Below are positions 3,082-32,837 of a stretch of 33,412 nucleotides of DNA, piece after piece. Each line of letters starts with the position of its first letter. Positions within the stretch are counted from its first letter, which is position 1. This stretch comes from Sulfurimonas sp. (GTDB lineage: Bacteria; Campylobacterota; Campylobacteria; Campylobacterales; Sulfurimonadaceae), in contig JALUWT010000175.1 in the NCBI GenBank assembly GCA_027019325.1, positions 1 through 33,412 on the forward strand, read 5' to 3'. Below the pieces are notes generated by a model. It saw nothing but the letters and a program-made list of their open reading frames with translations. It searched no databases and was not told the DNA's origin. The translations under genes and the position numbers were made by a program.

Positions 3082-4440
3082 ATGAAACCAATCACAAAAA
3101 GAATTAAAAAACTCTCACGACTAGAATATATAGTTCAAAAGATTCAAAAATACTCTTATGCAGAGACATTTACTCTCGTTAGCGCCTTTTTGCTCATCGG
3201 TTATCTGGTCAGCCCACACGACATGTGTCTCACGCAGGAGAAAGTTCCCTATCTTCTAATCATCTTAGCGATTCTTACTCTTTTTCACGGCTTTGAAAGT
3301 GGTTTTGTCGCGATGAGTTTAATCTCTCTGAGCATGTGGAAGTTTTATGATGAATTCCCCTACGTTAATTTTTTGGTTGACTTAATGATGGTGCTTATTT
3401 TTAGTGAGTTTCATTACTACTGGACAAAAAAAATACGGGAACTTAAAATTGATGATGATTACAAAGCCTCCAAACTGGATGAACTCTCAAAAGCATTCTA
3501 TACTTTAAAAATCTCTCATGATCAGCTGGAAAAAAATTATGTTCTCAAACCTATGAGTATCCGCAGTGCCATTGAAGAGATTCTTCTCAAGAAAAAACAA
3601 CAAAACAAGCAGGATGAAGTAGCACAAAGCAGTGAACAGTACCAAGAGTTCTTACTGCTTTTGGAAAAATCTTTTAATCTTCAAAGCGGTCTAATTATTC
3701 ATAAAGTTACACATCGCGTAAACAAAACATTGACACCCCAAAATGCTTCCATAACCTACAGTCATGCCTATGAAAAAAGAGATGAAGCGGCTCTATACAG
3801 TGATTACATGATACAGCATGCCCTTGAGCGAAAAAAACCTATTTTTGTCAGTGATGCAGCAAAAAATCCAACTTTACAACAGACAGAAACTGCAAAATTT
3901 TTAGCCGTTATCCCTACCGTTTATAATGATGAAGTCGTCACTCTTCTGGCCATAGAAAAAATGCCCTTTATGTCTTTTAACAAAGAAAACCTCATCTCTA
4001 TAGCTATTTTATTGGAGTATCTCTCTATACAAATTTACCAAAAAGAGACCTGGAAGCAATCAGAAAAAATGCAAACTCTTTTTGCAGAAAAGAGCTTTAA
4101 ATATGAGTGTTGCAGATTGAAATACCTGCATGATAAATACAAAATCGATTCCACACTGCTGATAATCAAGATTGATAATGAGTTACAGACACGCAGAGTG
4201 TTAGAAAAGACACAACGACTCCTGCGTTCACTCGATATTGTTACACAGACAAAATATAAAGAGACATTTTATCTTGTTGTACTTTTTCCACTCAATGACC
4301 AGGCTGTTGCCTTAGGGTTTTTAAACAGACTTCTTTATAATCTACAAAATAAAAAAGACAAAGCTTTTGAGTATATGACTTTTGGCATCAAACAAGAAGA
4401 TCTGATATTTCAATACATAACAGATGATTATCATGGATAA
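3082..4440 (+). CDS. pelD: PelD-like inner-membrane c-di-GMP receptor (TM + GAF + degenerate GGDEF)
   Basis: N-terminal TM segments, GAF-like centre, C-terminal LLRSLDIVTQTKYKETFYLVVLFPL resembling a GGDEF domain with RxxD I-site and lost GGDEF signature. Confidence 0.85.
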   Translation: MKPITKRIKKLSRLEYIVQKIQKYSYAETFTLVSAFLLIGYLVSPHDMCLTQEKVPYLLIILAILTLFHGFESGFVAMSLISLSMWKFYDEFPYVNFLVDLMMVLIFSEFHYYWTKKIRELKIDDDYKASKLDELSKAFYTLKISHDQLEKNYVLKPMSIRSAIEEILLKKKQQNKQDEVAQSSEQYQEFLLLLEKSFNLQSGLIIHKVTHRVNKTLTPQNASITYSHAYEKRDEAALYSDYMIQHALERKKPIFVSDAAKNPTLQQTETAKFLAVIPTVYNDEVVTLLAIEKMPFMSFNKENLISIAILLEYLSIQIYQKETWKQSEKMQTLFAEKSFKYECCRLKYLHDKYKIDSTLLIIKIDNELQTRRVLEKTQRLLRSLDIVTQTKYKETFYLVVLFPLNDQAVALGFLNRLLYNLQNKKDKAFEYMTFGIKQEDLIFQYITDDYHG

Positions 4441-5584
4441 TATTTTTGCTTTTTATTCAACCCATTTCTATCCTTTACTCGCTCTGCATATCTGTATCAT
4501 ACTCTTGTTGGCATTTGGTATCTCAAAATATGCACTGAAAAGATTTACAACAGTTTGCAAAGAAGATAAGTATCGACTCCAAGCCGTACAGGATAGAAGC
4601 CTCTTCTATAAATTTCTTTTCAGTGCCTCTTTGCATAAAAATAATCCTACTACAATATTTTTCTTTGTCCTTGCCTTTAATCTGGCTATCCCTTATGTTG
4701 GATATTTTTTCACACTGTGGCTTTTTTGGTATATGACACACATCGAGTATGCTCAGAAGGTCGTTAATACCGATATGCTCAATCTCGATGAATTTGAGAC
4801 TTCTTTTTTAAAAATTGAACGAACCTTCGGTGAAGGTTCCATGATTAATCTCATCGAAAACATCTATGTTCCAAAATCAAAAAAAATTAAAGCGCTCTCC
4901 ATTTTGGCAGAGGACCCTTCGCCAATCAGTCTCAGTATCATCAAACAGACATTGACTAGTGAAGATGATGAGATACGCCTTTTTGGATATGCCATACTCA
5001 ACAAAACAGAAAAAACCCTCAATGACAGAATAAATAGATATCTTGAAATAATTCGCAAAGAGTCTACAAAAGGAGATGCTACAGATGAACAAAAAGTAGC
5101 CTTTGCTTCTAAAGAGTTGGCATTTTTATATTGGGAAATGGTCTATACAGAACTCTCACATGAGAGTCTGAAAAAAAACTTTTTAAACTCTGCACTTTTG
5201 TATCTTGAGCTCTCACAAGAATTTTACATGGAAAAACTCAGTCATCTCCTAAAACAGTTCAATACTCTCAAAGAAAAAACCCAAAGATCCAAATCATTAA
5301 ACGCACTCCTTGAAGATACCTATTTGACCTGTTCTAGTATTTTTACGCTCAAAGGAAGAATATTTACCGTTAAAGAAAAATATGAAAATGCGCAAGAGTA
5401 TTTTACACTTGCAGAAGAGTTGCTGAGTGAAAAATCAACGAGCATCCTTCCCTATCTTGCTGAAGTCTATTTTATCACGCAGAGATACTCCATAGTCAAG
5501 TCTATTTTAAATCATTCTCAAGATCTAGCATACAATCCAAAACTCTACCCAATCATCAAACAGTGGGAAATCAGCCATGAGTAA
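4424..5584 (+). CDS. pelE: PelE-like inner-membrane TPR protein
   Basis: Two N-terminal hydrophobic segments then helical repeats; overlaps pelD and pelF. Confidence 0.8.
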   Translation: MIIMDNIFAFYSTHFYPLLALHICIILLLAFGISKYALKRFTTVCKEDKYRLQAVQDRSLFYKFLFSASLHKNNPTTIFFFVLAFNLAIPYVGYFFTLWLFWYMTHIEYAQKVVNTDMLNLDEFETSFLKIERTFGEGSMINLIENIYVPKSKKIKALSILAEDPSPISLSIIKQTLTSEDDEIRLFGYAILNKTEKTLNDRINRYLEIIRKESTKGDATDEQKVAFASKELAFLYWEMVYTELSHESLKKNFLNSALLYLELSQEFYMEKLSHLLKQFNTLKEKTQRSKSLNALLEDTYLTCSSIFTLKGRIFTVKEKYENAQEYFTLAEELLSEKSTSILPYLAEVYFITQRYSIVKSILNHSQDLAYNPKLYPIIKQWEISHE

Positions 5585-7292
5585 ACATTTTCCTAAAAGC
5601 AGCCATGTGGACATCATGCTTTTTTCTGAAGGAACATACCCTTATATAAAAGGTGGAGTTTCAAGCTGGATTTTACAACTGATGCAGGGACTTCCAGAGT
5701 TTACTTTTGGAGTCTGTTTCATCGGAGCAACACCCTACTTAAATGGTAAGAAAATGGAAGTTTGTTATGAATTTCCTCCTAATCTTAAACATCTTGAGGT
5801 CCATTATCTTTTTGAAAAATCCCAAGAGAGCAAAATTCCTAAAAAACTTAAAGGGAATAAAACAGGGTTCCAAGCCATTAGAAAACTATACAAATCGCTA
5901 ACAATGCAAAGGGGAAATCTACCTGAAATGCTGCAAAATATTGATTTTTATTTCAAAGATGTTAGCTTTGAAGATTTTTTATACTCAGAAGAAGCTTGGG
6001 AATTCATCAATGAGCTCTATATGAAAAATGCTCCCGATATTCCTTTTATCGACTATTTTTGGACCGTCAGAAATATTCATAAACCCATCTGGATCTTGGC
6101 ACAGATCGTTAAAAATCTACCGCAGACAAATATTTACCATGCTCCCTCAACAGGTTATGCCGGTTTTCTCGGTACGCTCGCATCCTACACAACACAACGC
6201 CCCTTTGTTTTGACAGAACACGGCATCTATACAAGAGAGAGAAAAATAGATATGCTCTCAGCTGATTGGATTGAGTACAAAAAACCTGCACTTTTACAGC
6301 AGCCTGAAGAGTATAATTACATTAAAAAAATGTGGGTTGATTTTTTTGATAAAATAGGGCTTTTTTGTTACTACCGTGCCAATCACATTCTCTCCCTTTA
6401 TAAAGGGGCCCAGCAGATTCAAATAGCACTTGGTGCACCCGAATCACGCTCTGACATTATTCCAAACGGTGTTGATGTAGATAAGTTGATGCAGACTATA
6501 CAGCTGCGGAAAGATCCTCCAAAACCCATTATCACGCTCATAGGAAGAGTTGTGCCCATCAAAGATATTAAAACCTTTATTCGTGCCATTAAGATTGTAA
6601 GCCAAAAGATTCCAAACATTGAAGGCTGGATAGTCGGTTCTGTTGATGAAGATATAGAGTATGTACGTGAATGCCAACAGATGGCTATTTCACTTGATTT
6701 AAAATTTAATCTACAAACCTTTGCAAATAACAAAGCGACACAATCCTTTGAACAGCTCCAAGAAAATCCTGACAAAATCAAATTTTTTGGACACAGCGAC
6801 ATTACACAAGTGCTCCCAATCTCAGCACTACAGACACTCACCTCCATCAGTGAAGGCATGCCTTTAGTTATTTTGGAAGGGTTTGCAGCAGGTGTTCCCT
6901 GCGTTGCAACGGATGTCGGAAGTTGTCGCGATCTCATCGAAGGCGGACTCAATGAAGAAGATAAAAAAATTGGTCTTGCAGGTGCTGTAACAGGCATCGC
7001 AAATCCTGAGGCTTTGGCACAAGAGTATATAAAATTTTTAACTTTTGAAAATGGAGTTTGGGAACAGGCTCAAAAAAATGCACTCACAAGAGTACAGAAA
7101 TATTACAAAGAAGATATGTTTTTACAGGAGTATAGAGATATTTACAATGAAGCCCTGCATCTCAACTGGGCAGAACTCCAAAAAAAAGTTTTTGCGTATT
7201 ATGCAGTAAACAGAATTCCTTATCCAGAACTAAAGATAAAAAGATTTACAATACGCAAGTATACAAAAACTCCAAAAGCAGGTAAGGCGTAA
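5577..7292 (+). CDS. pelF: PelF family glycosyltransferase (GT4)
   Basis: MLFSEGTYPYIKGGVSSWI, TEHGIYTRERK, EGMPLVILEGFAAGVPCVATDVG (E-x7-E). Confidence 0.95.
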   Translation: MSKHFPKSSHVDIMLFSEGTYPYIKGGVSSWILQLMQGLPEFTFGVCFIGATPYLNGKKMEVCYEFPPNLKHLEVHYLFEKSQESKIPKKLKGNKTGFQAIRKLYKSLTMQRGNLPEMLQNIDFYFKDVSFEDFLYSEEAWEFINELYMKNAPDIPFIDYFWTVRNIHKPIWILAQIVKNLPQTNIYHAPSTGYAGFLGTLASYTTQRPFVLTEHGIYTRERKIDMLSADWIEYKKPALLQQPEEYNYIKKMWVDFFDKIGLFCYYRANHILSLYKGAQQIQIALGAPESRSDIIPNGVDVDKLMQTIQLRKDPPKPIITLIGRVVPIKDIKTFIRAIKIVSQKIPNIEGWIVGSVDEDIEYVRECQQMAISLDLKFNLQTFANNKATQSFEQLQENPDKIKFFGHSDITQVLPISALQTLTSISEGMPLVILEGFAAGVPCVATDVGSCRDLIEGGLNEEDKKIGLAGAVTGIANPEALAQEYIKFLTFENGVWEQAQKNALTRVQKYYKEDMFLQEYRDIYNEALHLNWAELQKKVFAYYAVNRIPYPELKIKRFTIRKYTKTPKAGKA

Positions 7293-8665
7293 TGGCAGGC
7301 ATAGGGTTTGAGCTTCGAAAAATACTCAAAGAGGACCGTCTTCTCTCTTTGGCCAAAGTATACGGCTACTCTGCAATACTCAGCTCCGGCCCGTGGGTTA
7401 TCTCTATTATTGCCATTTTACTTGTAGGTTTTGTCAGTCTTGCGAGTTATGGAGCCAACAGTGATGTATACCGTTTTCAAGTTGTCATTACCTATGCCAT
7501 TGCCCTTGCTTCAAGTTTAATCATCACCGGTCTGGTACAGCTTCCTTTTACCCGTTACATCGCAGATTTGATTTTCAATCACCGTGAAGATGAAATTCTC
7601 CCCTCATTTTTTGGCGCAATTTTTCTCTCATGGATACTTGGACTTCCTTTCATCATACCTTTTTACCTCTGGATGTTTGAAGGGCAAAGCCTCGTTTTTA
7701 TTGTCGGAACAGTTGCCACATTTCTTGTCTTATGTGCTGTGTGGATTGCAAGTATTTTGGCAGCAAGTTTGAAGTACTACAAAGGTGTTGTCTGGTCCTA
7801 CTTTCTCTCCTATACTTTAATCGTCATCGCTTCAATTTTTTTAGGTGACAGTATTGAAAAACTCATCTATATCTTTTTTATCGGAAATGCCCTGCTGCTT
7901 GTTGCTTTAATGACCCTTATCATTAAAAGCTACAATGCTACAATATTTCTTAAAATCGATTTTTTTCTGGCAAAAAACTTCTACTGGTCTTTAGCCTTTG
8001 CCGGACTTTTTTATAATCTTGGCGCCTGGGTAGACAAGTTTATCTTTTGGTATAATCCTGCAACTGGCTACGCTGTGCTGGGAAGACTACATGCATCCAT
8101 TGTCTATGATATGCCAATATTTTTAGCGTATCTCTCGATTTTACCCGGTATGGCAATATTTTTCTTTCGTCTTGAAGCCGATTTTGCCGAGAAGTATGAG
8201 CTCTACTATGATGCAGTCAGAAATGGTGGAACACTCAAGATGATTCGTACCTACAGAGATGAGATGGTAAATATTATCCGCCATGCTATGCATGAGATTA
8301 TTATTATACAGGGAATTGTAGATATTATGCTTTTTCTCTCCGCTCCACAGATTTTTGCAGCACTCAAGATTCCACAACTCTACCTTGGACTCTTTTATGT
8401 TCTGACAATCGGTGCGATGCTGCAGCTTGCCTTTATGTCCGTTCTTGCAATACTTTATTATCTTGACAGAAAAATGGTTGCTATGTGGCTGAGTCTCGCA
8501 TTTTTTATTTTAAATGCCGTGCTGACGCTACTCTCCATAGATATGGGGCCGGCAATGTTTGGTTATGGCTATGCCGTATCACTGCTTATCGTCTTTACAG
8601 CAAGTATCTTGGTACTTAGAAATGAAATGAACAGGTTGAATTATGAAACATTTATGCTCCAGTAA
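7292..8665 (+). CDS. pelG: PelG family polytopic membrane protein (Wzx-like)
   Basis: MAGIGFELRKIL start typical of PelG; many TM helices; downstream of pelF. Confidence 0.93.
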   Translation: MAGIGFELRKILKEDRLLSLAKVYGYSAILSSGPWVISIIAILLVGFVSLASYGANSDVYRFQVVITYAIALASSLIITGLVQLPFTRYIADLIFNHREDEILPSFFGAIFLSWILGLPFIIPFYLWMFEGQSLVFIVGTVATFLVLCAVWIASILAASLKYYKGVVWSYFLSYTLIVIASIFLGDSIEKLIYIFFIGNALLLVALMTLIIKSYNATIFLKIDFFLAKNFYWSLAFAGLFYNLGAWVDKFIFWYNPATGYAVLGRLHASIVYDMPIFLAYLSILPGMAIFFFRLEADFAEKYELYYDAVRNGGTLKMIRTYRDEMVNIIRHAMHEIIIIQGIVDIMLFLSAPQIFAALKIPQLYLGLFYVLTIGAMLQLAFMSVLAILYYLDRKMVAMWLSLAFFILNAVLTLLSIDMGPAMFGYGYAVSLLIVFTASILVLRNEMNRLNYETFMLQ

Positions 8666-11399
8666 ACTTTTTACACTTTTGCTTCTCATGGCTACAACTC
8701 TTTTTGCAGGAGTAACAGATAAAAGTGCTCTGCTTTACTATGGTGATAAAATCTCTTACCCTATGGCCGGCATCCATGACTATATCATCGTCCAGCCTTC
8801 CAATACAAATGTTTATACCCATGGTTTTAAAATTTACAAAAAGAAGATGTATGCCTATGTAAGCATTGGCGAGATGGACAGAGACAGTGAGCTTTACAAT
8901 GATATCAACAAAAGTTGGATAGTGGGTGAGAACAAAACATGGAAGAGTGATGTTTTAGATCTTACAAATCCGGAGTATCAGCAGTTTCTTTTTCGTAAAA
9001 TAATAGAACCACAAATAAAACGCGGTTTTAAAAACTTTTTCTTTGACACCCTCGACTCGTATGAACTTGTCGCAAAAACACCGGCGCAAAGACAAAAGAG
9101 CCAAAAAGCACTGATTCATATCATTAACACCTTTCACACACGCTACCCCAATGCCAAACTTATCATCAACAGAGGCTTTGAAATAATAGACGCTGTTCAC
9201 AACGCAGTAACAGCAGTTTTATTTGAATCGTACTATAAAGGTGTACATGGCAAAAAAACGAGTTACTATGCTGTAGAGAATAAAGACAGAGTATGGTTGG
9301 ATGCAAAACTGCAAAAAATTCGAAAATATAATCTTGATATCATTGCAGTTGATTATCTGCCATTTCAAGAGATAAATACAAAAAAAGCCAATCAGCTTGT
9401 AGACTCTTTACAAGCTAAAGGTTTTATTCCTTATGTCAGCACACAGGATTTGACGATTTATGGAAAATCTTCCAAAAATCCTATTAAGCGTGAGATTCTT
9501 ACTCTTGCTGATACCAGCCAGCACGATAAGATGGAAACCGGCGCCCACCTTTACGGAGCATTACCACTTGAGTATTTGGGTTACATTCAAAAACTTTACG
9601 ATATTCATCAGACATTACCAAGAATAGAGCAGATGCAGCAATATGCCGGTGTTGTTGTCTGGCTTCCACGGAGTTATCCAAATGCTGAAAAACTTGTTGC
9701 TTGGCTCACGCAGGTCAAAAATTCCGGTATCAAAATCGTTTTTGCAGGAAATTTTGGCATAGATAATATCAAACTGCTGCATGATTTTCGCATAAGTACG
9801 AAAGAGTATCCTCAAGCGGCCAACAATACAAATAAGGTACTCATATCAAGCAGTATTATGGGATTTGAAATGAAGCCCCCACTTGCTTATAACGGCTACT
9901 ATATAGATATTTCCAAAGGAGATCCACTCTATAAGATCACAGATTCTAATCATCACACAGCAGTGCTTGCCGCTGTAATGCCATGGGGAGGCTTTGCCAT
10001 TGGCAATGCTTTTATGACCACGATTAATGATGACAATATCTGGACCATTAATCCTTTTGAGTTTTTTAAAGAAGCACTCCAACTCAAGAGCATTCCTGTC
10101 CCTGATACAACAACAGAGAATGGAAAACGCATCTTTTTTAGCCATATAGATGGTGATGCAATTATGAATAGAGTTGAGTGGAATCCAAAACTCTTTTGTG
10201 GAGAGATTATTTTAAATGATATCCTTAAAAAATATCACACTCCTATTTCTGCCTCTATAGTCGGTGCAGAAGTCGATAGTAACGGTCTCTATCCAAAGCT
10301 CTCACCACAACTACAACAATTAGTCAAAAATATTTATAAACTCCCAAATGTGGAGGGAGCAACACATACCTTTTCGCATCCGTTTTTCTGGGAAAAAATC
10401 AAAAATGGAAACCTTGCTCCACAATACAGACTTGATCCAAAAGGGTATACATTTTCTCTTCCTTATGAGATAGAAGGCATGTTGCAGCAAATCAATGAAC
10501 AATATTATCCAAAAGATAAAATGCCAAAAGCACATACCCTATTTTGGAGTGGTGATTGTATGCCACAGCTCAACGCACTTAGTTTCGTCTATAAACACAA
10601 AATTTTAAACATCAATGGAGGGGACACCTATGCCACCAATCTACACCCATGGCTCTCATATATAGCCCCCTATGGTATTGAACGTGGAGAGTATTATCAA
10701 ATATATACAGGGCAACAGGATGAAAATGTCTATACAAATGACTGGAAAGGGCCCTATTGGGGATTTAGAAATGTCATACAAACATTTAAGCTCACAGATT
10801 CTCCAAGACGTTTTAAACCGATTGACATCTATTATCATTACTATTCAGGTTCCAAAAGAGCCTCTTTCAACGCCTTAAAATATGTCTATGACTGGGTAAT
10901 GAAACGAGACACAAACCCAATGTTTACCTCAGAATATATTCCTAAAGCCATGGATTACTATACACTCTCCATGGCACAAGAGGGAGATAGATTTTTATTT
11001 GCCGGTCTGCATGATCTTAAAACTGTTCGTATAGAGAAAAAAGATGCAACTATAAATTTAAAAAAATCACTCAATATTGCCGGTTACAAACATTTTCAAA
11101 ACCATACGTATCTCCATATTGGTACAGATACCAAGGCCCTCATTGATACGCATCCAACAGAAGTCAAACAGCCTTATCTAGTCAGTGCCAATGGAAAGAT
11201 CACAGAATTAACGCAAGACGCGAAACATTTTCATATCAAACTTAGTGCACATGTACCTCTTAAATTAGAGCTTTTTATGCCAAAAGAGTGCCGCTATAAA
11301 CTTTCCCCGGGCTATAAAAAAGAGTTAGAACAAGAGAATATAATCTCCTTTAGCTATAAAAGCAGAACAGAAGTTGTTGTCGATGCGATTTGCAAATAA
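8643..11399 (+). CDS. pelA: PelA-like bifunctional hydrolase/deacetylase
   Basis: Signal peptide; GH114-like N-terminus (YVSIGEMDRDSELY, FFFDTLDSYE); deacetylase motifs FFSHIDGD and THTFSH. Confidence 0.88.
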   Translation: MKHLCSSKLFTLLLLMATTLFAGVTDKSALLYYGDKISYPMAGIHDYIIVQPSNTNVYTHGFKIYKKKMYAYVSIGEMDRDSELYNDINKSWIVGENKTWKSDVLDLTNPEYQQFLFRKIIEPQIKRGFKNFFFDTLDSYELVAKTPAQRQKSQKALIHIINTFHTRYPNAKLIINRGFEIIDAVHNAVTAVLFESYYKGVHGKKTSYYAVENKDRVWLDAKLQKIRKYNLDIIAVDYLPFQEINTKKANQLVDSLQAKGFIPYVSTQDLTIYGKSSKNPIKREILTLADTSQHDKMETGAHLYGALPLEYLGYIQKLYDIHQTLPRIEQMQQYAGVVVWLPRSYPNAEKLVAWLTQVKNSGIKIVFAGNFGIDNIKLLHDFRISTKEYPQAANNTNKVLISSSIMGFEMKPPLAYNGYYIDISKGDPLYKITDSNHHTAVLAAVMPWGGFAIGNAFMTTINDDNIWTINPFEFFKEALQLKSIPVPDTTTENGKRIFFSHIDGDAIMNRVEWNPKLFCGEIILNDILKKYHTPISASIVGAEVDSNGLYPKLSPQLQQLVKNIYKLPNVEGATHTFSHPFFWEKIKNGNLAPQYRLDPKGYTFSLPYEIEGMLQQINEQYYPKDKMPKAHTLFWSGDCMPQLNALSFVYKHKILNINGGDTYATNLHPWLSYIAPYGIERGEYYQIYTGQQDENVYTNDWKGPYWGFRNVIQTFKLTDSPRRFKPIDIYYHYYSGSKRASFNALKYVYDWVMKRDTNPMFTSEYIPKAMDYYTLSMAQEGDRFLFAGLHDLKTVRIEKKDATINLKKSLNIAGYKHFQNHTYLHIGTDTKALIDTHPTEVKQPYLVSANGKITELTQDAKHFHIKLSAHVPLKLELFMPKECRYKLSPGYKKELEQENIISFSYKSRTEVVVDAICK

Positions 11400-12441
11400 A
11401 GAGAAAGTTTATGTAGCAAGCTACAAAGAGGTCATTATCGGTTTTATCACCTTTGCTTTGATTCTCTTTGTGCTTTATCCAAAAGACCTCATACTCCAAC
11501 AGATTTTAAAGGAAAAATCAAACTATGACTTAAGTGTGCTCTATCTCAAAAATATGCTTCGAAATGATCCTAAAAATGAAAAACTCATTTTGACACTTGC
11601 GCAAAAAAGCATCAAAAGTCAAAATCGAGATTTAGCACTCCGTCTTTTAGAACTACTAAAAAAATCTTCACACAAAGAAGTACAAAAGAAAGCCTACCTT
11701 CTGAGTTATAAACTTTTAAAACAGAACTATTTTTTCTTGCAAAACAAAAAAGACAAAGCTGGAATGCAAAAGCTGCGAAAAGAGCTTGCAACAGTTTTTC
11801 TTACTATTTTGAACAGACATTTTTACAATGATGAAGATCTCAAAATGCTCTATAAAGAAGCGATGTTTTTAAAAAGTGAAGAAGTGCAGTATTTATTGCT
11901 TACAAAGATGATTCAAAAAAATCCGGACAATATTAAACAACTCAAAGATGCCCTTTACCTTGCTTCGAAACTAAAAAAGTACAATGAAGCATTTCACTAT
12001 CTTGATAAACTTGCAAAACTAGACAAAAAACATATGCTAAAATACAATAATACCTACTTTTATCTTCTCACGCAGGTCTACAACTATAAAGAGCTCGAAA
12101 ATCATCTTCTTACAGTTGCAAAAAATTCCAAATATTGGCAAGATAAAGTTATAGAGTTTTATCTCGCACATAAAAAGTATAAAAAAGCAGCTGCGTATTA
12201 TATGCATCTTTTTTATCAAACAAAAGATTATCATAAAAGAAGAGATTTGTGGCTCAAAGCACTTATAACACTGCAATCTGGAAATTTACTCAAAGATGCA
12301 GTACAATTAGGAAGTAAGTATGAAGAGTACTTCATCAAAAGCAAAGAAGCCAGAGTGACGCTTTTAAAACTCTATCTCTCTGCAAATGATGTGCAAAAAG
12401 CAAAAGAACTCTCGGCAAAAATATTAAAGGTTTTCAAATGA
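11383..12441 (+). CDS. PelB N-terminal-like protein: membrane-anchored TPR protein
   Basis: Likely ATG at 11383 (ORF track 11374). One TM helix (VIIGFITFALILFVLYPKD) followed by helical repeats; between pelA and the TPR/beta-barrel ORF. Confidence 0.72.
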   Translation: MRFANKEKVYVASYKEVIIGFITFALILFVLYPKDLILQQILKEKSNYDLSVLYLKNMLRNDPKNEKLILTLAQKSIKSQNRDLALRLLELLKKSSHKEVQKKAYLLSYKLLKQNYFFLQNKKDKAGMQKLRKELATVFLTILNRHFYNDEDLKMLYKEAMFLKSEEVQYLLLTKMIQKNPDNIKQLKDALYLASKLKKYNEAFHYLDKLAKLDKKHMLKYNNTYFYLLTQVYNYKELENHLLTVAKNSKYWQDKVIEFYLAHKKYKKAAAYYMHLFYQTKDYHKRRDLWLKALITLQSGNLLKDAVQLGSKYEEYFIKSKEARVTLLKLYLSANDVQKAKELSAKILKVFK

Positions 12442-15203
12442 TACGTATTATTTTTTTAGTATCACTACTCCTCTTCTTCTCATTTGAAGCCAACGCAAAG
12501 GTTTCTCTCAGTGATACAGAAATAAAGCTGATGTTTCAATCTTTTGTCTACTCAAATGATTTAGAAAATGCTTATAAAACTGCAAAAATCGCCTACAATA
12601 GAGATCCAAACTCCTACTACTGGAACCAAAAAATGGCGGAGATTTGCAGATGGAGCGGCCGAGGAGCAGAGGCGATGAAGTATCTGCGTTTTTTATATGA
12701 CAAAAAGCACAGTTCCAAACTTGCCAAAGATATCATCGATTACGGGCTCAGTGCCTATCAATATGAAGCGATTAAAGATTTAGTCACGCAAGAAGCACTA
12801 CAAAAACCGACTGAAAAAAATATCCAAAGAATGGTCTATATTTATACGCAGACAGGAGAGCCTCAAAAGGCAGCAAAAATCTTGCATAAACTTTATCTTC
12901 GCACGCATAAAAGTAATTTTTTAACAAAAGAGTTACAGATATATATGAATATGGGCGACATTGAGGCAGCAAAAAGAATCGTCACACACATAGAAAAAAA
13001 TAACCTTTACAACTATGACAACATCCAGCTGCTCTCCTACTATTACTATCTCTCACGCAATATACAAAAAGCATACAGTATCTTAAATAAGGTCAATATT
13101 TCAAAAAAATATAATGAAAAACTCTACCAGACAATGAGTGATTTGGGATGGTATTTGCAGCATTACACAAAAGCATCAAGCATTTCTCAGACAATCTTGC
13201 AACACAAAGATGGCCGTCTGGTTGATTATGAGAGAGTCATTTATGCCAACAGAGATGCTAACCCCTCTCTGGCTATGGAAACTGCTTTAAAAGCATATGA
13301 GAAGTATCATCACAGCTATCTTTTTTATACCTTTGCCAACAATGCGCTTAAAACAAAAAAATTCCAACTCCTCTCTACTACAATCCTTACAATCGACAAG
13401 GAAAAAACTGCTCTCACGCAAGAGGCAAATTACTGGCTCATTAAAGCACAGCTAGCTGCACATTTTAAAGAGCGAAAAAAAGCACATTATGCTCTGTTGC
13501 AAGCTTTACGATTAGATAAACATAACCTGCAGATTCAATTTACTGCCATAGACCTCTTTTTGCAATATGGTTTTTATGCAGATGCCAAAGTAACACTGCA
13601 AGATATTGTTGAGGAGAAAACAGTTCCTGTATCACTCTATTTTCCTGTTGCTTCACTCTATTACAGTTTGCATGACATCAATTTGGCTGCTTTTTATGCA
13701 GACAAACTCCAGCAGATGCAATCACCCCTCACGCAAACACTTGCATTTCATTTTTTGCGTTTAAATATTTACAGAGCGCAGTTGAATCATCCGGCTGTGG
13801 CACATGAGATAAGAGAGCTTGAGGGCTTATTGCAAAGAGAAAGAAAAAACAATCCCAAGAGCATAAAAAGTGATAAATATCTTTATGATTATTTACGTCT
13901 TTCTCTCTACACTTTGGGAGCAGATAAGTTTGAAAAAGAGCTTGCAGATGCTAAAAAATATCTCTCAACAGCGCACTATAATGACATGCAATACGCCTGG
14001 GCTGTTCAAAACAATGCTGATGAAAAAGCACATGCAATCTACCTGCAGACCAGTACAAGAGAGGTTTGGCTTGAGTTTTCCAATGCTCTTATGCAACAAG
14101 AGCACAGTAAAATTGAAGACCTTCTTTTTGCCTATTTAAGAACGCTGCCACTGAATGATGCTGCCTATGGCGCACAAAATGACGGGCAAACTGCCCTTTC
14201 CCAATCACTCACATACAGTTCACTCAATACAAACCAAAGAGATCAAAATGCTTATATCTCTTGGCTTAACTTGACAAAAAAACGTTCTGATCTGTTTGAT
14301 TCGAAACTCTCATACTATAATCGTAATCCGCTTCTTCGAAAATATGTAAAAATAAAAAATGATACTTACATTAATGATGGTATTTTCCTCTTGAGTCATC
14401 TTGAATACTACAAAAATTCTACGCTTGATGACACACTTCTACTCTATACGCCAAAGAGCTCTCTTGGAGTAGATTTTGGAGTGAGAAAACTTTTTAACAA
14501 AGCAAAAGTAGAACTCAAAGGCGGTTATGCGGACAGTATGGACTCTTACTATCGTTTTTCCCTCTACGGAGAGTATATTTTGAACAGCTATTTTACACTC
14601 AAAGCCAAAGCAGCCAAGAACATCACAGCTGATGAGTCTACGCAACTTCTTCTCGGTGGTAAAAAAGATATGCTCTCCCTGGGTATTCTCTACAACATCC
14701 TCAACTCTACATCACTTGAGATGAGATATGACAGAAATAGCTACACTTCTCAAGATAATATAAAAATTGGACGTGGAAATTACTTTAGTGCAAATCTCGG
14801 TTATCAAATCAGAAATGGGTATCCGGATTTACATATCGGTATCTTTAGCGATGCCGGAGTTTATCAGGAAAATGCAGGTTCAAAAGGTGTTATGGACAGA
14901 CTACAGGATGAAAACTTCAAAGTGCTTCCAAAAGATTTTTACAATCTTGGTGTCAACTTCTCCTATGGTATGCAAAATAGTGAAATCTACACAAGAGTCT
15001 GGAGACCATACTTTGAGGGTTCAAGCTATTATAACAGTGAACTGGGTGATTTTACGTATGGATTTAGTGCCGGCTATGGTGGCAAAGTCTACTCTCAAGA
15101 TCACCTTGTCATTGGTACGGAGTATACAAACTCCGTCAGTGGCGTCGGTGGCAATATATTGGAAATATTTTTACGTTATGAATTTTTATACACGCATCGC
15201 TAA
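12438..15203 (+). CDS. pelB: PelB C-terminal-like protein: TPR repeats plus outer-membrane beta-barrel
   Basis: Own signal peptide (MIRIIFLVSLLLFFSFEANA), long TPR region, C-terminal alternating strands ending in an aromatic/charged pattern (LEIFLRYEFLYTHR). Confidence 0.78.
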   Translation: MIRIIFLVSLLLFFSFEANAKVSLSDTEIKLMFQSFVYSNDLENAYKTAKIAYNRDPNSYYWNQKMAEICRWSGRGAEAMKYLRFLYDKKHSSKLAKDIIDYGLSAYQYEAIKDLVTQEALQKPTEKNIQRMVYIYTQTGEPQKAAKILHKLYLRTHKSNFLTKELQIYMNMGDIEAAKRIVTHIEKNNLYNYDNIQLLSYYYYLSRNIQKAYSILNKVNISKKYNEKLYQTMSDLGWYLQHYTKASSISQTILQHKDGRLVDYERVIYANRDANPSLAMETALKAYEKYHHSYLFYTFANNALKTKKFQLLSTTILTIDKEKTALTQEANYWLIKAQLAAHFKERKKAHYALLQALRLDKHNLQIQFTAIDLFLQYGFYADAKVTLQDIVEEKTVPVSLYFPVASLYYSLHDINLAAFYADKLQQMQSPLTQTLAFHFLRLNIYRAQLNHPAVAHEIRELEGLLQRERKNNPKSIKSDKYLYDYLRLSLYTLGADKFEKELADAKKYLSTAHYNDMQYAWAVQNNADEKAHAIYLQTSTREVWLEFSNALMQQEHSKIEDLLFAYLRTLPLNDAAYGAQNDGQTALSQSLTYSSLNTNQRDQNAYISWLNLTKKRSDLFDSKLSYYNRNPLLRKYVKIKNDTYINDGIFLLSHLEYYKNSTLDDTLLLYTPKSSLGVDFGVRKLFNKAKVELKGGYADSMDSYYRFSLYGEYILNSYFTLKAKAAKNITADESTQLLLGGKKDMLSLGILYNILNSTSLEMRYDRNSYTSQDNIKIGRGNYFSANLGYQIRNGYPDLHIGIFSDAGVYQENAGSKGVMDRLQDENFKVLPKDFYNLGVNFSYGMQNSEIYTRVWRPYFEGSSYYNSELGDFTYGFSAGYGGKVYSQDHLVIGTEYTNSVSGVGGNILEIFLRYEFLYTHR

Positions 15204-18433: not shown

Positions 18434-18655
18434 TCACCCTCCACAAACTGGTGGAAGCAGTGAGATTTTATCTCCATCTTTGAGCGCTGCTTCAAGTGAA
18501 GATACAAGCGTATCATTCACTGCCACTGCAGAGTTCTCTAGCCACTCTGAAAGCTCTTTGTCCTCTTGGAGTATTACTGCCAACTCATTTAAGTTTGTAA
18601 TCTCTAACTCCAAAGCATCTTTTTGTATCGGTCCTAAAAATTCTACTCTTACCAT
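18434..18655 (-). CDS. moaD: Molybdopterin synthase sulfur carrier subunit
   Basis: 73 aa ubiquitin-like ORF ending in ISLLPPVCGG (C-terminal GG). Confidence 0.92.
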   Translation of the reverse strand: MVRVEFLGPIQKDALELEITNLNELAVILQEDKELSEWLENSAVAVNDTLVSSLEAALKDGDKISLLPPVCGG

Positions 18656-18699: not shown

Positions 18700-18968
18700 T
18701 AAGTAACAGGCAACAAATAGTTTCATAGGCAACAACATTTAAAAGGTTTAGATGCAAGGCAAACTTTACTTTGCGATACTGGTATCGTGAAGCAAAGTTT
18801 AACGCAGTCAAATGAGCCTTTTAAATGTTGCCCTACGGGTGATAATTTAAGCTACAATCTGCTTCGTTGAAAACACTTGAAGCTACTAGTAGTTCCTGCG
18901 TGCTTTCGCCTCGTATCTCATAGCTTATATTATCATTGACTATGAAACTATTTATTGCCTGTTACTTA
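18700..18968. repeat. Three-arm inverted-repeat element (MITE-like or structured RNA candidate)
   Basis: Outer arms 18701-18728 / 18940-18967 (28 bp, 1 mismatch); arm 1 at 18733-18746 / 18817-18830 (14 bp perfect) with inner hairpin 18761-18779 / 18782-18800; arm 2 at 18841-18854 / 18921-18934 (1 mismatch) with palindrome CTACTAGTAG at 18883-18892. Confidence 0.85.
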
Positions 18969-18992
18969 AGTTAAGTCATGTATAATTGCAGA

Positions 18993-19643
18993 ATGATTTT
19001 TGGAAAAATAGAATACCTCAACCTTCTCCCATTTCATCTTTTTATGAAGCGTTTTAGCAGAAGTTCTCAAGAGCATGCTAGTATGAATTATAAAAAAAAT
19101 GTTCCTGCAAAAATTAATTATGAATTCACAAACAGAAGAGTAGATGCCGCTTTCATTTCAAGTATCGCAGCAAAAAAGTACAAGCATGTCAATCTTGGAA
19201 TCATCGCAAAAAAAGAGGTACAGAGTGTTTTAGTCATTCCCTCACGCAAGAACAAAAGAGATAAAGAGTCAGCTTCTTCCAATGTTTTGGCACAAATTCT
19301 GCAGCAAAATGGAGAAGTTCTCATAGGTGACAAAGCCCTGAAATATGCTCTTAAAAATGATGACTATATTGATCTGGCACAGCTCTGGCATGAGAAGCAT
19401 CAACTCCCTTTTGTCTTTGCGCTTCTTTGCTACCATAAAGATAAAAAACTCTATAAAAAGATAGAAAAAACATTTTTAAAAAAAGAGCAGAAGATTCCTC
19501 ACTATATGCTACAGATTGCATCCAAAAGAACAGGAGTAAGCCCAAAAGATATTTTAGAGTATCTTACTCTTATCTCTTACAGACTTGACAACAGAGCCAA
19601 ACAAGGGTTAAAAAAGTTTTATATGGAAGCAAAGAAGCGCTAA
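18993..19643 (+). CDS. mqnA: MqnA-like chorismate dehydratase (futalosine menaquinone pathway)
   Basis: MIFGKIEYLNLLPFHLF start and RRVDAAFISSIAA typical of MqnA; ATG at 18993 preferred over 18978. Confidence 0.78.
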   Translation: MIFGKIEYLNLLPFHLFMKRFSRSSQEHASMNYKKNVPAKINYEFTNRRVDAAFISSIAAKKYKHVNLGIIAKKEVQSVLVIPSRKNKRDKESASSNVLAQILQQNGEVLIGDKALKYALKNDDYIDLAQLWHEKHQLPFVFALLCYHKDKKLYKKIEKTFLKKEQKIPHYMLQIASKRTGVSPKDILEYLTLISYRLDNRAKQGLKKFYMEAKKR

Positions 19644-32301: not shown

Positions 32302-32379
32302 CGGGGTGTAGCTCAGTATGGTTAGAGTACCTGGTTTGGGACCAGGGGGCCGAAGGTTCGAGTCCTTTCACCCCGACCA
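32302..32379 (+). tRNA. tRNA-Pro (anticodon TGG)
   Basis: CGGGGTG/CACCCCG acceptor, anticodon loop TTTGGGA, GGTTCGAGTCC T-arm, encoded CCA. Confidence 0.95.
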
Positions 32380-32416
32380 CTTTTAAAATTTTAATTTTAT
32401 ATTTTTACTAAAACAT

Positions 32417-32494
32417 GGTGGGATTAGCTCAGCTGGTTAGAGCACTGGTTTGTGGTGCCGGGGGTCGCGGGTTCGAATCCCGTATCCCACCCCA
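32417..32494 (+). tRNA. tRNA-His (anticodon GTG)
   Basis: GTGGGAT/ATCCCAC acceptor, extra 5' G opposite C discriminator, loop TTGTGGT, encoded CCA. Confidence 0.95.
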
Positions 32495-32536
32495 TTTAAA
32501 ATATATAAAACAACCAATAATATAACAAATATAGTA

Positions 32537-32613
32537 GCGTCCGTGGCTCAACTGGATAGAGTTTCGGATTTCGGCTCCGAGGGTTATAGGTTCGAATCCT
32601 ATCGGGCGTACCA
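32537..32613 (+). tRNA. tRNA-Arg (anticodon TCG)
   Basis: Acceptor GCGTCCG/CGGGCGT, anticodon loop TTTCGGC, GGTTCGAATCC, encoded CCA. Confidence 0.93.
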
Positions 32614-32625
32614 TATTTTTCTGAC

Positions 32626-32702
<77 letters not shown>

Positions 32703-32752
32703 CTACATTTCTTATGTTATTTTGTCAGAAGTGACGTTAAAAACTTATCCAC

Positions 32753-32837
32753 GCGGATGTGGTGAAATTGGTAGACACGCCAGACTTAGGATCTGGTGCC
32801 GCAAGGTGTGAAGGTTCAAGTCCTTTCATCCGCACCA
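32753..32837 (+). tRNA. tRNA-Leu (anticodon TAG)
   Basis: GCGGATG/CATCCGC acceptor, anticodon loop CTTAGGA, long variable arm, encoded CCA. Confidence 0.95.

Follow-up and report, generated by a model that had tools for sequence, protein, structure and literature searches.

A probable TA-inserted MITE with a conserved two-armed core between moaD and mqnA in a Sulfurimonas genome

The usual view of MITEs is that of ISs in decay, in which the ends are conserved and the interior varies. In Streptococcus pneumoniae, RUP is a MITE mobilised by IS630-Spn1 (PMC2229807), and the Correia/NEMIS repeats of Neisseria, like other bacterial MITEs with TA flanks, carry terminal repeats with TA at the termini (Table 1, PMC2229807). 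For the IS630 family itself, the purified transposase of ISY100 is the sole protein required, it inserts into TA and duplicates it, and its minimal end requirement has been established (PMC2170065). Here, we analysed a three-arm inverted-repeat element located in a window of 33,412 nucleotides, the whole stretch of Sulfurimonas DNA under study (contig JALUWT010000175.1), from a genome assembled into 218 contigs and 94% complete. Elsewhere, this window carries a Pel exopolysaccharide operon (3082-15203; PelD GGDEF, DUF3492/glycosyltransferase (PelF-like), GH114 (PelA-like) and the PelB C-terminal barrel) and five clustered tRNA genes (32302-32834).

The element had been described from the sequence in an earlier note as spanning 18700-18968, coordinates that proved exact once the duplicated TA is counted; the mobile element proper covers 18702-18966, or 265 bp. 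It is flanked by, and does not include, moaD (18434..18655, minus strand; ThiS/MoaD family, PF02597) and mqnA (18978..19643, plus strand; menaquinone biosynthesis, PF02621). All its parts are given on the plus strand, except for the two TA copies (18700..18701 on the left, 18967..18968 on the right), to which no strand is assigned. The left terminal inverted repeat, or outer arm (18702..18732), reads AGTAACAGGCAACAAATAGTTTCATAG followed by CAA, which pairs with TTG at 18936-18938 in the right terminal inverted repeat (18936..18966). These repeats, of the AGTAACAGGCAACA type in the window copy, are nearly perfect over ~28 bp, with one mismatch; with TA included, the long outer arms of the earlier description run over 29 nt (18700-18728 / 18940-18968) with that single mismatch. 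In sister copies, the counterpart of the left outer arm is an IS630 terminal inverted repeat.

Between the outer arms, arm 1 (18733..18830) comprises the 14 bp perfect stem already recognised in the earlier note (14/14, 18733-18746 / 18817-18830) plus an inner, imperfectly paired hairpin whose internal loop carries the motif AAGGC...AACGCAG. It is followed by a small central hairpin, CCC-TAC-GGG (18831..18839), which was missing from that description and is kept in nearly all copies, some of them reading TCC..GGA with the pairing retained. Arm 2 (18840..18935) is closed by the stem TGATAATTTAAGCTA (18840-18854) / TAGCTTATATTATCA (18921-18935) and contains, as had been noticed, a central palindrome, CTACTAGTAG; its tip TTGAAGCTACTAGTAGTTCCTGC (18877..18899) is one base off a 23-mer present at >100 Campylobacterota places. 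Arm 2 is arm 1 inverted and diverged: the element aligns with its own reverse complement, and the motif pair AAGGC ... AACGnAG surrounds the inner hairpin in both arms. The three-arm fold is far more stable than expected by chance, with a folding energy of -104.7 kcal/mol against -59.1 +/- 4.7 in 200 shuffles (z = -9.7, 0/200). No ORF of at least 70 aa lies inside the element, in agreement with the initial impression that it holds no convincing reading frame.

Comparison with relatives having the same moaD/mqnA arrangement, a check that the earlier note had proposed, revealed the empty site in four of them (L013, L015, L026 and L040). Their junction reads GATA|AG(T/C)TAA, with TA counted once (GATA|AGTTAAG being one form of this clean empty site), and the window reads GATA-element-TAAGTTAAG at the same place. 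A 2-bp target-site duplication is thus present where none had been recognised, an oversight explained by its length of only 2 bp. In these relatives, the moaD-mqnA gap is compact and conserved, with an intact presumed promoter region containing GATAAGTTAAG and what look like back-to-back -10-like boxes. From this arrangement, the insertion appears to have split a compact promoter region shared by moaD and mqnA, moving both promoters apart; a promoter scan returned nothing strong. Such a location invites the idea that the element is a regulatory cruciform belonging to the divergent promoter, since it fills the intergenic gap between two presumed promoters. We consider this extremely unlikely, because relatives with the same gene arrangement keep a compact promoter region intact without the element, and because copies occur at many unrelated loci. 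The empty sites and the dispersed copies likewise refute an ancestral origin as part of the moaD/mqnA locus, while co-option by moaD/mqnA after insertion is possible. The closest mqnA relative (97%; L012, G026:C316) lies downstream of an apparent malic enzyme gene and not beside moaD, and so the gene order around mqnA varies within the genus.

The host genome contains about a dozen relatives of the element, on contigs C43, C77, C7 (two), C99, C190, C139, C70 (three), C21 and C216. The complete copies measured there are 265-267 bp long despite identities down to ~60%, and most show a TA on each side, with C7a and C70c showing it on one side only. Joining the flanks of the C43 copy reproduces an exact empty site in G012, with TA counted once; clean TA empty sites were also found in other genomes for C7a and C70a, and for C7b, C21 and C70b the corresponding loci of other genomes are insert-free, with the junction blurred by small differences. 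Insertions of the family avoid genes: 2/60 junctions fall in a long open frame, compared with 608/870 random positions.

Beyond the host, 110 stretches of a species-level genome collection contain an exact match to the arm-2 tip 23-mer TTGAAGCTACTAGTAGCTCCTGC, and more than a hundred places in Campylobacterota carry the family. Among the matches listed (80 of the 110), all 80 bear a Campylobacterota label; most are Sulfurimonas, among them Sulfurimonas indica NW8N, and the other labels, which are those of the submitters, are Campylobacteraceae, Helicobacteraceae, Sulfurospirillum, Nitratifractor and Arcobacter. When 60 whole genomes were searched, the family was present in 18, all of the host's genus, and was not found in the other genera sampled. 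Distant blastn searches of plasmid and phage records gave no match to the element, nor did viral contigs searched with the tip 23-mer. A search of viral contigs with the gapped arm motif gave one match, in an apparently ordinary region with a fold unlike that of the element, and it was dropped. In the open-licence literature searched, no MITE family of Sulfurimonas is described, and we came across no earlier account of this family with its three-arm core.

The ends of the elements fall into groups that include A2, B, C, D, E and F, several of which have counterparts in resident ISs. A2 ends read TA|AGTACCTATCCA..., and the complete genome G116 harbours an IS630-family IS in three TA-flanked copies of 1126 bp, TA included (L399-L401), whose end AGTACCTATCCAAAAATAAAACCAATTAA is identical to the arm of a MITE in the same genome, the match extending over ~29 bp. 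This IS encodes its transposase in two different frames, as orfA (112 aa) and orfB (252 aa), which score 154 bits with NF033545 (cut-off 100) and 107 bits with DDE_3. In one of the copies (L399, G116:C1:227900-229400), the right end of the IS is tandemly duplicated over 56 bp, giving two possible ends. Group B ends (TA|AGGGCACCTCTAAAAAC) and group F ends (TA|ATTGAACCCTCTGAACAA) both equal those of IS5-family ISs, which are ~1.25 kb long, score 263 and 260 bits with NF033581 and occur in several genomes; representatives in the genus are L208, L261 and L265, with TA flanks in several copies. No partner IS was identified for groups C, D and E. These shared ends and TA flanks suggest that DDE transposases mobilise the family at TA sites, in the sister groups at least.

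The window's own end, AGTAACAGGCAACA, shares its core clade with AGTGCC and AGTAAG ends. When 100 genomes of the genus were searched for exact 14-mers taken from related ends, no IS with ends of this clade was located, the matches being only MITEs or chance matches in genes; several unpaired matches to the terminal-repeat pattern were likewise chance matches within genes. End sharing with an IS5-family IS was seen for B and F and not for the window copy. In the host genome, at 94% completeness, neither a DDE_3 nor a DDE_Tnp_1 transposase domain was detected. An IS located just downstream of mqnA in another genome (L016, G010:C1; ends CATAAGTATCTACACAACT, 430-aa transposase-like ORF) was rejected as a partner because its ends do not match those of the element. 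A transposase with matching ends, a search for which the earlier note had suggested, exists for the sister groups A2 (IS630) and B/F (IS5), but none was found for the window's own ends. Since no IS with the ends of this clade and no host DDE_3 or DDE_Tnp_1 domain were found, the assignment of the window copy relies on its sister group and on the TA duplication, which make an IS630-type transposase its most likely mobiliser.

As another possible mover, a Y1 (RAYT) transposase would act on a REP/BIME-like element, with the paired inverted hairpins as its REPs. The two inverted, imperfect hairpins do resemble a BIME, and the host genome has two Y1_Tnp-like genes. However, around the stronger of these (L051) lies another repeat, ACCGACTGAAGTCGGTGTTAC, that bears no likeness to the element, and neither the TA duplication nor the long terminal repeats shared with DDE-type ISs fit Y1 transposition, leaving this reading hardly credible. 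In its own right, L051 (G000:C91), a Y1 gene amid ACCGACTGAAGTCGGTGTTAC / GTAACACCGGTTTCAACCGGTAT repeats, constitutes a RAYT-REP-like system unrelated to the element.

All stems of the element covary strongly. Among ten copies of the host genome, 49 pairs are changed on both sides, compared with 27.5 after shuffling (0/500), so that the element is neither the single-copy sequence nor the one lacking compensatory changes that the earlier note had allowed for. Among 68 non-redundant copies, 95.8% of the cells in the outer 26 pairs are Watson-Crick, and 25 of these 26 pairs are seen as all four Watson-Crick types. By itself, covariation is no proof of RNA, and it is the comparison of G.U with A.C that tells DNA from RNA pairing: a selected transcript should tolerate G.U and reject A.C. 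The non-Watson-Crick cells of the outer arms, again in the 68 copies, comprise 20 G.T, 33 A.C and 22 others. In the inner stems, G.T and A.C number 13 and 4 in the arm-1 stem, 9 and 8 in the arm-2 stem, and 3 and 36 in the arm-2 inner stem, the arm-1 stem being the only one leaning to G.T. Stems were picked without preferring G.T over A.C, apart from a slight bonus for G.T at the boundary step. Because covariation is strong and yet G.T is no commoner than A.C, we conclude that the pairing of the stems is kept at the DNA level and not as RNA, as the earlier note had leaned to assume.

These counts also bear on the alternative that the element is a structured non-coding or cis-regulatory RNA, with fold and covariation selected on the transcript. 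The stability of the fold (z = -9.7) and the massive compensatory change would suit such an RNA, and folding is known for transcripts of bacterial MITEs (PMC10969869). Nevertheless, the G.U excess is lacking (20 G.T against 33 A.C in the outer arms, 3 against 36 in the arm-2 inner stem), Rfam scans of the element at gathering and permissive thresholds gave no credible match, and close relatives differ in whether a given site carries the element. The structured-RNA option offered in the earlier note is thus very unlikely. The 68 non-redundant copies constitute a natural data set on how DNA stems stay perfect without RNA, with template switching between arms, end replacement and selection as candidate ways.

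The relationship between core and ends is unusual for a MITE. Where the cores of group-A copies are ~90% identical, their outer arms differ from copy to copy by 25%, although within a copy only 4% of pairs are mismatched; the ends have thus changed more than the core, which is not expected from slow independent decay. Template switching in replication is known to fix hairpins and to maintain them (PMC8794818), and switching between the arms, or replacement of both ends by IS-derived ones, would keep the arms complementary. For the most part, cores group according to their ends: those of B and F, both with IS5 ends, are sisters with 73% identity, and A cores form two clades, of which A-II mixes end subtypes. 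The main clades are 49-64% identical to each other. A common origin of the cores is supported by the arrangement in two arms, by the central hairpin and the motif pairs, and by a length that hardly varies. Conservation of the arm-2 tip is partly built in, the tip having served as the search key for most copies compared; among full-length copies collected by their ends alone, 16/25 have a tip of the arm-2 kind. Shorter forms share their ends with full elements: one-arm forms, which have group B ends and measure about 160 bp (L409, G115:C22:62065-62228; L410, G026:C158), and zero-arm forms of about 45-57 bp with the terminal repeats almost back to back (L408, G118:C76:3522-3576; L270, G012:C85:6204-6261; L280, G033:C162). 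Since such forms occur, the core is not essential for the persistence of the element.

An interior that is conserved while the ends vary, even to the point of coming from two transposase families, raises the question of whether the core is an independent, selected cassette that repeatedly gained ends of unrelated families (IS630, IS5), and not the remnant of a decayed IS. This proposal, which extends the MITE explanation and is no alternative to MITE status, we put at somewhat under an even chance. It is favoured by the occurrence of one two-armed core design, at ~265 bp, with ends of the IS630 kind in A2 and of the IS5 kind in B and F, by outer arms diverging more than the core, and by the mixed end types inside the A-II clade. 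Conversely, cores mostly cluster by end type, so that exchange between superfamilies would be at most old and rare; core identity between clades is just 49-64%, with a conserved tip that is partly the search key; and one- and zero-arm forms persist without the full core. Tentatively, then, the two-armed core may have worn complete IS630 and IS5 ends over the history of Sulfurimonas, the core being the lasting identity and having a selected function; if so, end synapsis or the recruitment of a host protein could be that function.

Taken together, the element is very probably a MITE, that is, a 265-bp non-autonomous DNA transposon that inserted at TA and duplicated it, with IS630 as the likeliest mobiliser. 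It is short and non-coding, has terminal inverted repeats, is multi-copy, dispersed and mostly intergenic, and displays TA duplication and empty sites; along with the sister subfamilies that share the ends of resident ISs, these features bear out the non-autonomous, MITE-like reading of the earlier note. A DDE transposase acting in trans would recognise the terminal repeats and move the element, by IS630 (Tc1/mariner-type) cut-and-paste, from excision as double-stranded DNA to insertion into TA. In the host genome, the element would now be immobile, given the lack of DDE_3 and DDE_Tnp_1 domains in the 94%-complete assembly. Its perfect arms would be maintained by inter-arm template switching and by the capture of both ends from an IS, and not by an RNA function. 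The two-armed core probably serves the element's own life cycle, for instance by joining the ends or by binding host or transposition proteins. The conserved 23-bp core motif exceeds the needs of a plain MITE, and the element may therefore do more than hitchhike.

The family is thus ordinary in kind, and its conserved core with exchanged ends is what sets it apart. With the IS630-family IS of G116, it shares the outer ~29 bp of the A2 subgroup and the TA flanks, although that IS encodes an orfA/orfB transposase and has ends unlike those of the window copy. The ends of the IS5-family ISs equal those of subgroups B and F, but their transposase belongs to a family other than IS630 and has no direct link to the window copy. 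The Caulobacter CIR repeats resemble the element in having two arms formed from inverted repeats, but in CIR a linker joins the arms and the 5' and 3' ends do not pair as they do in other bacterial repeats (PMC2229807), and the repeats belong to an unrelated organism. Correia elements, compared by description, share terminal repeats and terminal TA with the element but are ~107 or ~155 bp long and do not have its three-arm fold. RUP is also alike, being intergenic and non-autonomous, with a TA target and IS630-like ends (PMC2229807). By contrast, RUP is 107 bp long, whereas the Sulfurimonas element has 265 bp with two inner arms, a central hairpin and a conserved core motif, and belongs to a family with sister groups that carry IS5 ends.
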